A stretch of DNA of 54,554 nucleotides from the NCBI GenBank assembly GCA_003021685.1, contig PXRO01000023.1, forward strand, positions 46,815 to 101,368, in the 5' to 3' direction. The translations under genes and the position numbers were made by a program. Below are positions 2,884 to 24,004 of the stretch, piece by piece (the stretch's first letter is position 1; the number at the start of each line of letters is the position of its first letter). The notes below the pieces were generated by a model. The model saw nothing but the letters and a program-made list of their open reading frames with translations. It had not been told where the DNA came from and ran no database searches. Source of the DNA: Halobacteriales archaeon QS_4_62_28 (GTDB taxonomy: Archaea; Halobacteriota; Halobacteria; Halobacteriales; Haloarculaceae).

Positions 2884-3933
2884 TTACTCGTCCATCAGAC
2901 CGCCTTCCTCGACGCGCATGACTGCCTCGCCGTCGGGCAGGTTCGGCGCGTCGACGAGTTTGACGATGCGCTTGTTGCCCTTGGACTTGCGCAGGTAGAT
3001 CCGGAACGTGGAGGTGTGGCCGAGGATGTTCCCACCGATTGGCTGGGTCGGGTCGCCGAAGAAAGAATCGGGGTTCGAAGCGACCTGGTTGGTGACGACG
3101 ACGGCGGTGTTGTTGAGGTCGCCCACTCGCATCAGGTCGTGGAGGTGCTTGTTGAGTTTCTGTTGTCGTTCGGCGAGTTCGCCACGACCGACGTACTCCG
3201 CGCGGAAGTGGGCCGTCAGCGAGTCGACACAGAGCAGTCGGACGGGGAACTCGCCGTCCTGACTCTCGCTGGCGATCTCCTGTGCTTTCTCGGCCAGCAG
3301 GATCTGGTGGTTGGAGTTGAACGCTTTGGCGACGTGGATCTTGTCGAGCACTGACTCGACGAGTGCATCGAGCAGTGCCTCGTCGCCGGCGTCGGCCGCC
3401 TCTTCGTCCTCGACGACGTCGTGGCGGACCATCGTATCTTCGAGCACCTCGTCGTCGAGGCCCTTGACTATCTGATCGATTCGCTCGGGACGGAACGTGT
3501 CCTCGGAGTCGACAAAGATCGCACTGCCCTCCAGTCCCCCGTGTTCGGTTGGCAGCTGGACGGTGACCGAAATCTGGTGGGTCACCTGGGACTTGCCGGC
3601 CCCGAACTCGCCGTACACCTCGGTGATCGACTGGGTTTCGATGCCCCCGCCCAGCAGGTCGTCGACTTCCTCGACAGACCAGGTGAGTTTGCCGATCTGT
3701 TCGCGCCGTTCCAGCACTGCCGCACCGGTCTCGAAGCCACCGATGTCGGCGGCTTCACGCGCGGCCTGGATGATGTCGGCGGCCGAGGATTCGCCGATGT
3801 CGGCGGTGTTGGACAGTTCACCGGGGGAGGCAACGGCGATCCCCTGGTAGCCGTCGAACCCGTTGTCTTTGAGTTTTTCTGCTGTCGCCGGTCCCACTCC
3901 TGGCAGGTCTTCGAGGTCCTCTGATGCGGACAT
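2884..3933 (-). CDS. radA: DNA repair and recombination protein RadA
   Basis: This is the archaeal RecA/Rad51 recombinase, which forms filaments on single-stranded DNA and drives strand exchange. The 349-residue length is normal. Residues 1-60 form the helix-hairpin-helix domain ([12 protein letters not shown]). Walker A is GEFGAGKS at 108-115, Walker B is LLCVDSL near 240, and the L2 region contains NPDSFFGDP. No intein is present. It is read leftward behind a strong TATA-like box and lies downstream of the element-interrupted membrane gene. Confidence 0.98.
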
Positions 3934-4034: not shown

Positions 4035-4574
4035 TTATACGAGATGCGAACCGATAGCTGCCAGTCCGAGGCTCCCGGTGAAGACGGCGACGCCGAACGT
4101 CCAGTCGGGTCCGGCGACGAACTGGTCGCCGACGAGTCCGGTGGCGAGGACGGCAATCGCCACCATCGAGAGGACGGGCCGGTCGGCGAGCGAACGACCG
4201 AAGGTCCGGAGTCGCCAGACGAAGTCGTCGAGTTGGCCGATACCGGTGGACGTAACGTTTGATACTTCTCAGCCGTCACGGTCCCCGGCTGAATATATCA
4301 TTGCTTACGTCCACCGGTAGAGGAGTGTTGCACTGATCGGTCGGTTCCCGTCGGGGTTCTCGGCCGGTTCGAACGCCGAGAGCGTCCCGTCGTCGACGGT
4401 CAGCAGGTCCCCGGTGTGGCGGCGGCGACCGTCGGCACCGGCGACACGCAAGAGCGTTATCGCTTCGTCGTCGGTGCCGACCACGCGGTAGATGCCAGGT
4501 GTGGCGTTCGCTGCAACCACGTCGGCGTCGGCGAGACGGTAATGATCGTAGGCCGCGGGCGCATTCGCTGTCAT
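4035..4574 (-). pseudogene. Membrane protein gene split by a 79-bp palindromic element
   Basis: The upstream part (4574 to 4305) encodes an acidic domain ending in the tail YRWT, whose last codons and stop lie in the inserted element. The downstream part (4238 to 4035) carries on in frame with GQLDDFVWRLRTFGRSLADR and then two hydrophobic segments. Removing 81 bp (4239-4319, one GA copy plus the element) joins both parts into one 156-codon frame counted from 4586, or 152 from MTANAPAAYD at 4574. The gene follows pspAB with a 2-base gap and precedes radA. I infer loss of the two-helix membrane anchor; the soluble part may still be made. The family is unknown to me. Confidence 0.8.
4241..4319. 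mobile_element. Family A palindromic element, copy 1 (79 bp)
   Basis: The ends are perfect 15-bp inverted repeats TACCGGTGGACGTAA, and the similarity between the arms continues inward to about 35 bp, so nearly the whole element can fold back. It contains no open frame. It is flanked by GA on both sides (4239-4240 and 4320-4321), read as a 2-bp target duplication. It is 76/79 identical to copy 2 at 13783-13861. This has the form of a non-autonomous MITE; no transposase is in the window. Confidence 0.85.
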
Positions 4575-4576
4575 CG

Positions 4577-5194
4577 TCACTCCCACGGGTGCTCACCGGG
4601 TCGGTCCGGCCAGAGCGGGTACCAGTACTCCGTGTCGGACTCGACGGCGAGTTCCCCGTCGAGGTTCGAGTCGAGTTTGAACTCCGCCGACGAATCGCGT
4701 TCGTGGGACTCGTGCTCGTCGGGCGCGAAGGGGTAGTACCGGCCCCGCCGGAAGGAGTACACCCAGTAGACGAGTTGGCCGCTTCGCTCGTCCTCGAACG
4801 CGAAGACGGCCGCCAGTAGCCGCGAGCCATAGCGGGCCTCGATCAGCGTATCGGCGGCGAAGTGGATCGACGTGACCAGATCCTCGAACTCGTCGTCGTG
4901 GAGGACGATCCACTGGTAGCCGTGATCGTCGGTCGTGAAATCGGCCGTCGTGCCGGTCTCGACTTCGCCTGCCGCCAGAATCGCCTCGACCTCGTCCATC
5001 GCGTCCTGGAAGTCGGTGTTGTCCACGTCGGCGAAACACAGCGCCGCGTCACCGGTCGGCGCGTAGCCCAGTTCCGCCTCCATCGTAATGTACGCCGTCG
5101 ACATGCCAAAAAGGTCCTCGGGGTCTGCATCCCGGGTGGCGTCGGCCTCGGCTTTCGTCCCGAGGATTCTCTTGAGTCCGTCCAGCAGTCCCAT
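4577..5194 (-). CDS. pspAB: PspA-associated protein PspAB
   Basis: The 205-residue protein begins MGLLDGLKRILGTKAEADAT and matches my recollection of the haloarchaeal PspAB family, found near HtpX and linked to the PspA membrane-stress response. It is soluble and acidic, with no membrane segment. I chose the start at 5194 over 5317 because the longer N-terminus is not haloarchaeal in character. The neighbouring htpX gene at 6077-6952 supports the family call, although a toxin-antitoxin pair now lies between them. The biochemical activity is not known to me. Confidence 0.75.
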   Translation of the reverse strand: MGLLDGLKRILGTKAEADATRDADPEDLFGMSTAYITMEAELGYAPTGDAALCFADVDNTDFQDAMDEVEAILAAGEVETGTTADFTTDDHGYQWIVLHDDEFEDLVTSIHFAADTLIEARYGSRLLAAVFAFEDERSGQLVYWVYSFRRGRYYPFAPDEHESHERDSSAEFKLDSNLDGELAVESDTEYWYPLWPDRPGEHPWE

Positions 5195-6076: not shown

Positions 6077-6952
6077 TCACCGCCCTTCGAGTTCGCGTTC
6101 GAGGTCTCGCAGGCGTTCGATCCGTTTCTCGGTCGAGGGGTGTGTGCTGAACAGTTTCCCGACGACGCCGGACTTGATCGGGATGATGAAGAAGGCGTTC
6201 ATTTCGGCCTGGTCGCGCAGGTCCTCCTTTGGCACCTTGTCCATCCGGCCGTCGATTTTCATCAGCGCCGTTGCCAGCGCCGATGGCTTGCCGGTGATCG
6301 AGGCCCCACCGCGGTCGGCGGCGTACTCCCGGTAGCGACTCAGCGCGCGGATCAACAGGAACGAGATGATCCAGACGACCAGCGAGACGACGATGGCGAC
6401 GATGATCGGTGCGCCGTTGCCACCCCGGTCGCGGCCGCCCGAGAACAGCCAGCCCCAGCGGACCACGAGGAAGGCAATCGTCGAGAGGAAGGAGGCGATG
6501 GTCATCACCATCACGTCGCGGTTCTTGATATGGGCCAGTTCGTGAGCGAGGACACCCTCCAGTTCCTCCTGGTCGAGGGTGTTCATGATCCCGGTGGTCA
6601 CGCAGACTGCCGAACTCTTCTTCGACCGGCCGGTCGCGAAGGCGTTTGGCGCGCGCGAGTCGGCGACGGCGACTTTCGGCTTTGGCAGGTCGGCCTGCTG
6701 AGCGAGGCGGTCGATCATCCGGTGGAGTTCGGGGTACTCGTCGGGGTCGACCTCGCGGGCCCCCATCGAATAGAGCGCGAGTTTGTCGCTGAAGAAAAAC
6801 TGCCCGATCAGGAAGACGCCCATGCCGAGGATGGCGACCCCGAAAAAGCGGGTCTGTGTCATCACTCCGATGAAGACGATGTACAGTACGAACAGCAGGA
6901 ACATCGTCAATATCATCCGGGCGCGAAGCCCCCAGTCGGTTTGCCACTCCAT
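6077..6952 (-). CDS. htpX: Zinc metalloprotease HtpX
   Basis: This integral-membrane M48 protease degrades misfolded membrane proteins. The 291-residue sequence has two N-terminal membrane segments, the zinc site HELAH in GVLAHELAHIKNRD, another pair of hydrophobic segments, and the EYAADRGGA motif that supplies the third ligand. I chose the ATG at 6952 (MEWQTDWGLRARM) because the TATA-like box at 6974-6983 is then at leaderless spacing. It would work with pspAB in envelope stress. Confidence 0.93.
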   Translation of the reverse strand: MEWQTDWGLRARMILTMFLLFVLYIVFIGVMTQTRFFGVAILGMGVFLIGQFFFSDKLALYSMGAREVDPDEYPELHRMIDRLAQQADLPKPKVAVADSRAPNAFATGRSKKSSAVCVTTGIMNTLDQEELEGVLAHELAHIKNRDVMVMTIASFLSTIAFLVVRWGWLFSGGRDRGGNGAPIIVAIVVSLVVWIISFLLIRALSRYREYAADRGGASITGKPSALATALMKIDGRMDKVPKEDLRDQAEMNAFFIIPIKSGVVGKLFSTHPSTEKRIERLRDLERELEGR

Positions 6953-6973
6953 ACGCGACCGTACGCGGGTCAC

Positions 6974-13260: not shown

Positions 13261-13356
13261 ATGACCTGGGGCGAGTTGTTCGACCGTGCAAGCGAGTACG
13301 AGACGAGCGTCGACCGCGTTCGGTCGGCACTGCGGGAGCAAAGAGATGGAGGCTGA
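13261..13356 (+). CDS. 31-residue peptide overlapping the next gene
   Basis: The frame encodes MTWGELFDRASEYETSVDRV followed by a charged tail. It is an acidic, helical peptide and its end overlaps the start of the 152-residue gene at 13346 in another frame, which suggests translational coupling. The composition is haloarchaeal (acidic, GC3-rich codons). I recall similar short genes before this neighbour family in haloarchaea, but the role is unknown. Confidence 0.6.
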   Translation: MTWGELFDRASEYETSVDRVRSALREQRDGG

Positions 13357-13804
13357 ACCGACCCGGATCGTCGCCGGCGCGGACGTGCTGGCTGCCGACC
13401 TGCTGGTCGGCGGTGACGCACGCGCGGCGCTCGACCACGTTCGCGAGCATAGCTGGCTCACACTGGTTGCCAGCGACCCACTCCTCGACGACGCAGAGGC
13501 CGTGATCGAGACACTCGCCGACGACGCGCTGGCGGCCGACTGGCGAACGCGAATCGAGGCCGAGCGCGAGGGCGTCTCCCATCCGCCAGAGGACCACCCC
13601 GGACTCGCCTCGGCCTATCGCGGTGAGGCGGCCCACCTCCTGTCCTACGACGAGTCGCTCCGGTCTGCGAACGCGGGGTTGTCGATCCAGCCCTACGCCG
13701 ATTTGAGCGTGCGCCCGCCGGATGCCTTCGCACGTCTGTTCGACGCCCAGTCGCTGTACGAGGCCACGTTCGACGACGACTATACCGGTGAACGTAACGT
13801 TTGA
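13346..13804 (+). CDS. Conserved haloarchaeal protein (DUF7384-like) with a C-terminus altered by an element
   Basis: The 152-residue protein starts MEAEPTRIVAGADVLAADLL, then has alternating helices with ASDPLLDDAEAVI and HLLSYDESLRSANAGL. The pattern of Asp residues is PIN-like, but I cannot show nuclease activity. The last seven residues, YTGERNV, come partly from the family A element at 13783-13861. Removing 81 bp gives the ending DDYTGPNRDPRA, which looks like the native tail. The protein is therefore nearly complete and probably functional. Confidence 0.75.
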   Translation: MEAEPTRIVAGADVLAADLLVGGDARAALDHVREHSWLTLVASDPLLDDAEAVIETLADDALAADWRTRIEAEREGVSHPPEDHPGLASAYRGEAAHLLSYDESLRSANAGLSIQPYADLSVRPPDAFARLFDAQSLYEATFDDDYTGERNV

Positions 13805-13861
13805 TATTTCTCAGCCGTCACGGTCCCCGGCTGAATATATCGTTGCTTACGTCCACCGGTA
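13783..13861. mobile_element. Family A palindromic element, copy 2 (79 bp)
   Basis: It has the same length and nearly the same sequence as copy 1 (76/79). It is flanked by TA on both sides (13781-13782 and 13862-13863), a 2-bp target duplication. It lies within the last codons of the preceding gene and supplies the new stop codon TGA. It has no coding capacity. Confidence 0.85.
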
Positions 13862-23874: not shown

Positions 23875-24004
23875 TACCGGTGGACGTACCGTTTGATACT
23901 TCTCATACTGTCGGACGTAACTATCTGAAGATTCTCGCCACCCCGGGATGGCGAAATCCGTCACGGACTTCCGTCCGACAGTATCAGCCGCCACGAGCCC
24001 GGAT
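23875..24004. mobile_element. Family A element, copy 3, truncated and interrupted
   Basis: Bases 23875-23905 match the first 31 bases of family A with a single difference (cgtaCcg for cgtaAcg) and are preceded by TA. The match is then broken by a family B element and resumes weakly at 23987 (gccgccacg for gccgtcacg). The right terminal repeat is missing. It is therefore an old, decayed copy. Confidence 0.7.
23906..23983. mobile_element. Family B palindromic element, copy 2 (78 bp), nested in family A
   Basis: The ends are TACTGTCGGACGTAA and, on the other strand, TACTGTCGGACGGAA. It is flanked by TCA at 23903-23905 and 23984-23986, a 3-bp target duplication. It lies inside family A copy 3, so it inserted later. 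An inner stem TCGCCACCCCGGGATGGCGA increases its fold-back potential. It is non-coding. Confidence 0.8.

Follow-up and report, generated by a model that had tools for sequence, protein, structure and literature searches.

A 79-bp palindromic element of MITE type in a pspAB-linked membrane-protein gene of a haloarchaeon

Between radA and pspAB of Halobacteriales archaeon QS_4_62_28, two minus-strand reading-frame pieces are separated by a short palindromic sequence, which raises the question of whether a mobile element has split a single gene. The window, i.e. the whole stretch of DNA that was analysed, is 54,554 nucleotides long. The upstream half (4305-4586) now comprises 93 codons from a GTG and ends inside the palindrome, and the downstream half (4035-4238) is open to its own stop and encodes two predicted membrane helices. 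On the same strand, pspAB (4577-5194; PF22742, E 5.2e-75) extends into the region around the GTG start of the split gene, and radA (2884-3933) and htpX, encoding an M48 membrane protease (6077-6973), were recognized by profile matches. Pfam, NCBIfam, and PHROGs contained no family for the split gene when queried with the upstream half and one intact orthologue. As described below, it is highly likely that a MITE-type insertion split this pspAB-linked gene. We designated the repeat family to which the inserted sequence belongs as E1.

The E1 element (4241-4319) is 79 bp long, palindromic and non-coding. The left terminal inverted repeat, TACCGGTGGACGTAA (4241-4255, plus strand), located by a repeat search and a motif scan, is perfectly matched over 15 bp by the right terminal inverted repeat (4305-4319, minus strand), and an inner inverted repeat (CAGCCG / CGGCTG, 4270-4291) was delineated by folding and alignment. 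Two copies of a GA dinucleotide (4239-4240 and 4320-4321) flank the element. A 79-bp element with 15-bp perfect inverted ends and a GA duplication had been proposed at this site, and the sequence and the repeat search agree with that proposal to the base. The 24-nt arms show a complementarity of 83%, and the folding z-score is -6.8, with an equal stability in none of 200 shuffled sequences. Allowing three mismatches or fewer, the window contains seven occurrences of the end motif TACCGGTGGACGTAA, whereas 1.28 are expected, and 0/100 shuffles reach this number. Because no shuffled sequence folds as well, the end motif is over-represented and many copies exist in the genome, E1 is not a chance structure.

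A covariance model placed E1 at no fewer than 50 distinct places in the host genome (E <= 5.3e-13); 150 of 1461 first-look candidates were scored, and the count is therefore a lower bound. An earlier search had given 40 scored places among 77 first-look candidates, and these 40 copies were fetched with their flanks. After exclusion of two half copies (L046 and L047), 38 full copies of 78-80 bp were aligned. Their 2-bp flanks are equal in 27 copies (TA/TA in 24, and GA/GA, TC/TC, and TT/TT in one each) and unequal in 11 (TA/CA in four, and TA/CG, CA/TA, TG/TA, TA/TG, TA/GT, GA/TA, and GA/TC in one each). The presence of equal pairs other than TA indicates that the flanking dinucleotide is the target, which is duplicated upon insertion, and we tentatively read the 11 unequal pairs as products of later mutation. 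Two identical copies (L014 and L015) occupy separate places with differing flanks, which points to recent movement of the family. The window copy has only two differences from each of its nearest copies, L009 and L011, suggesting a recent insertion. It belongs to the AA group, in which the flanks match in 12 of 14 copies compared with 15 of 24 in the remainder, counts that may likewise reflect recent movement.

E1 was detected in only two of 97 genomes searched, namely the host and G036. An exact 20-mer of E1 was absent from the genome contigs and the viral contigs searched, and blastn against plasmids returned nothing; these three collections perhaps leave out near relatives of the window. 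Two further copies in the window are at 13783-13861 and 23875-23905 (both plus strand), the latter being the left part of a copy interrupted by a different element (see below). The copy at 13783-13861 has TA/TA flanks. A DUF7384 gene (13265-13861) has its 3' end inside this copy, so that E1 encodes the last residues; the DUF7384 profile is matched up to residue 147 of 153. Where an E1 copy lies at the end of a gene, it can thus provide the final residues of the protein.

The palindromic nature of E1 and the covariation of its arms in the alignment would also fit a REP-like or structured-RNA repeat that spread in some other way, in which case the gene would naturally end here and the downstream piece would be a chance frame or a separate gene. 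However, 12 of the 15 both-sided changes fall in one column pair, which divides two subfamilies, and Rfam gave no match to E1, its lone sub-threshold hit (E 0.99) falling outside the element. Matching target dinucleotides, including GA/GA, TC/TC, and TT/TT, also argue against such a repeat. The location of the copies is more favorable to it, because a codon test called 0/38 E1 copies intragenic compared with 142 of 400 random window positions, and E1 seems to avoid genes elsewhere in the genome. Nevertheless, the test is crude and of limited sensitivity, with 35% of randomly chosen window positions classified as intragenic and the window copy itself overlooked.

When the upstream half was used as a query, 39 places were found in 37 of 97 genomes, and 30 of these loci, the host locus included, were fetched and read. 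Among the 29 other orthologues, 19 are open past the junction, nine are short forms, and one (L062, in G005) is frameshifted just beyond the junction. The short forms, of about 90 residues, end approximately 14 residues past the junction, and pspAB was found in the fetched flank of none of them. Fifteen of the 29 have pspAB within the fetched flank, and 14 of these, including the same-genus orthologues G001-G003, are uninterrupted, the exception being L062. The original prediction of uninterrupted orthologues across the junction is thus borne out for genes beside pspAB, many of which are beside radA as well. Among the 15 pspAB-linked orthologues, only the frameshifted L062 lacks the element and yet stops at this position.

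Relative to G001-G003, exactly 81 bases are added in the window, and the lengths otherwise agree. These form a single block in a five-sequence alignment with a raised gap penalty, whereas a four-sequence alignment drew the same 81 bases as 36 + 45, with eight orthologue bases placed inside E1. The number corresponds to E1 plus one copy of the GA dinucleotide, and the empty site foreseen to the nucleotide is matched by the 81 fewer bases in G001-G003, in a comparison between species rather than strains of one species. The extra bases largely contradict a repeat at a natural gene end, and the uninterrupted orthologues with a colinear tail also speak against it, which makes this alternative very improbable. 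Could the interruption be an artefact of assembly around a repeat of about 50 copies? The host assembly consists of 57 contigs (89.7% complete) and E1 is multi-copy, but the two flanks follow each other as parts of a single orthologous gene, with order, phase, and orientation all preserved, and the GA duplication is common to both. In addition, usual sequencing reads are longer than 79 bp, the length of the repeat. An artefact is therefore extremely unlikely, and the insertion of a MITE-type element is the preferred explanation.

On the gene strand, E1 begins with TAC CGG TGG ACG TAA, corresponding to YRWT and a stop, and the minus-strand frame from the GTG at 4586 ends in this way within the right terminal repeat. 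The frame continuing beyond E1 reads GQLDDF...SHLV-stop, to 4035. The two halves, read separately and not joined, contain 89 and 67 codons, in agreement with the single frame of 156 codons that had been proposed for the uninterrupted gene. Two hydropathy peaks (Kyte-Doolittle, 19-residue means of 1.76 and 1.56) fall in the downstream piece, and the upstream piece lacks any. Followed upstream, the reading frame of the downstream half meets a stop after 11 codons, inside E1. Because no ATG, GTG, or TTG is present between this stop and the junction, re-starting is possible only further down.

We propose the following course of events. E1 is most probably a short non-coding MITE with inverted ends that is mobilized by a transposase supplied in trans and duplicates a 2-bp target, usually TA, on insertion. 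In the window, it probably entered a GA in the linker between an N-terminal domain and a two-helix membrane tail. The gain of 81 bp keeps the frame, but the in-frame TAA in the E1 end stops translation after YRWT, so that the tail is not made in frame. The earlier reading of the element and its insertion is supported by these data; as for the truncated soluble protein that it envisaged, the stop after YRWT and the removal of the two helices agree with the sequence, and the solubility of the product and the tolerance of tail loss are presumed.

E1 has the features of a MITE except for a proven partner. It is short (78-80 bp), contains no gene and has 15-bp inverted ends in the window copy; it is dispersed in near-identical copies over 50 places, two of which are identical with different flanks; and it duplicates its target, as indicated by the equal 2-bp flanks in 27 of 38 copies and the gain of 81 bases in the split gene. 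In addition, the TA duplication and TAC-type ends expected of an IS630-derived MITE, as in some local IS630 groups, are present. RUP, ERIC, and Correia/NEMIS are bacterial IS630-type MITEs of about 100 bp that are palindromic and target TA; they have other hosts, and we liken them to E1 by general description, not by sequence.

In haloarchaea, the MITEs described in Haloquadratum walsbyi are short, lack a transposase, and carry terminal inverted repeats, frequently together with target duplications, and some of them moved although a functional matching transposase was not found (PMC3119063). Compared by description, E1 is similar to them in its small size, lack of transposase, inverted ends, target duplication, and haloarchaeal host (PMC3119063), and it is distinguished by its length of 78-80 bp, mostly TA duplications, and ends unmatched to a known transposon. 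The small mobile repeats (SMRs) of Haloquadratum are, like E1, very short and multi-copy with inverted ends, but the passages on them describe no target duplication, which E1 has (PMC3119063). Haloquadratum PATEs are also short, palindromic, and multi-copy, but they are described there as having neither terminal inverted repeats nor target duplications, both of which are found in E1 (PMC3119063). The literature searched, within the limits of these searches and with the end sequences included, gave no name for E1 or for the second family described below. As far as the literature and sequence searches go, E1 is a new MITE family with a known mechanism, set apart from the H. walsbyi MITEs by description.

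The TA duplication is compatible with IS630-type transposases, whose usual target is TA. IS630-family elements (PF13358) are present in 45 of 145 genomes. We delimited the ends of seven multi-copy groups by comparing their copies and added the single-copy group G065. Five of the seven multi-copy groups have ends starting with TAC, whereas G134 and G143a have other ends; several IS630 loci carry CTATAG-type ends, so that the TAC type is one of several. The comparison of ends was made with six TAC-type groups, excluding G134, G143a, and the locus L202. These groups are 1.07-1.14 kb long and carry a transposase. TA is present on both sides in all four copies of G034b and G065, and equal TNA triplets flank nine of 11 copies of G107, G143b, G034a, and G001.

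The ends of E1 agree with these TAC-type ends at 9-10 of 15 positions; of 20000 random 15-mers starting with TAC, 4804 and 1628, respectively, do as well. The best match (10/15) is thus not significantly closer than random. The features that E1 has in common with some of the haloarchaeal IS630 groups are a TA duplication and ends starting with TAC, other groups having different ends. Mobilization of E1 by an IS630-type transposase is therefore plausible, as judged by the type of duplication. The weak match of its ends would also fit mobilization of E1 by another transposase, for example an IS5-type enzyme with TA or TNA targets, since such targets are used by some IS5 subgroups. TA or TNA duplications do accompany the TAC-type ends of intact IS630 elements in haloarchaea, and the ends of the second short-element family match those of IS630 well, both of which speak against a non-IS630 enzyme. 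We regard such an enzyme as a serious contender, albeit with somewhat less than an even chance.

An IS630-type partner of E1 would be expected to have TACCGGTGGACG ends. The host genome contains one IS630 fragment above the Pfam cut-off and one below it, and none at E <= 1e-10. Because the host genome is incomplete, the E1 partner may be missing from the assembly. Inspection by eye of the matches listed, out of 158 host places, revealed no long end pair of an autonomous partner but only pairs spaced by about 80 bp and single ends, and no E1-like end pair was found in 30 IS630 loci. Long end spacings in L095 and L102 were dismissed as chance, with ordinary open frames between the ends. A 1.49-kb end pair in G009 was also rejected, because it is a copy of the second family holding an IS4-family element (PF01609, NF033592; L155, about 500-2000), which has separate CAT ends and a duplication of 10 bp.

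This second family, E2, is represented in the window by a 78-bp palindromic element (23906-23983, plus strand) with TCA/TCA flanks, nested in the third E1 copy. E2 was scored at 40 places among 65 candidates in the host genome and occurs in 10 of 59 genomes, host included. Of 30 copies read, 20 have equal 3-bp TNA flanks. The E2 ends agree with the TAC-type IS630 ends at 12-13 of 15 positions, an agreement that 6 to 50 of 20000 random 15-mers starting with TAC attain. IS630-type mobilization of E2 is therefore well supported, which links a TNA-type family of short elements to IS630-type ends. The TNA-flanked haloarchaeal IS630 elements (L203/L299, L309/L310, L300-L302, and L200/L296-L298) have ends that resemble those of E2. 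A mixed copy with an E1-like body and an E2-like right end is present in L042 (1004-1083).

The locus thus provides an exact in-gene insertion of a haloarchaeal MITE whose empty site was predicted to the base, and two abundant families of short elements are defined in one genome. The insertion event itself is ordinary biology of a familiar kind; of more interest are the link between E2 and IS630 and the fact that the pspAB-linked gene is broken repeatedly. For the latter, we surveyed loci with a PspAB query, keeping 80 named haloarchaeal loci of 186 relatives in a set that overlaps the orthologue survey. The upstream domain is present in 13 of the 80 loci, and it runs on into one or more predicted membrane helices in 10 of the 13 and into none in three. 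The gene is disrupted differently in three named genomes, and in two of these the break lies at or close to the linker that precedes the helices. In L222 (MAG QH_10_67_22), the frame ends inside the domain and no tail is present before radA, a deletion-like loss. L218 (HArc-gm2, taken as the same genome as L062) is frameshifted, and so is L238 (Halapricum sp. CBA1109), whose helices remain in another frame; single-base frameshifts such as these are possibly sequencing errors. The tail may have been cut off on several independent occasions, by E1 in the window and by other breaks elsewhere, for the most part at or close to the linker; freeing a soluble N-terminal domain may then be favored and not merely tolerated, but we consider this idea unlikely. 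Short homologues without the tail also exist. The survey flags a pspAB-linked membrane protein without a family name that is broken in several haloarchaea.
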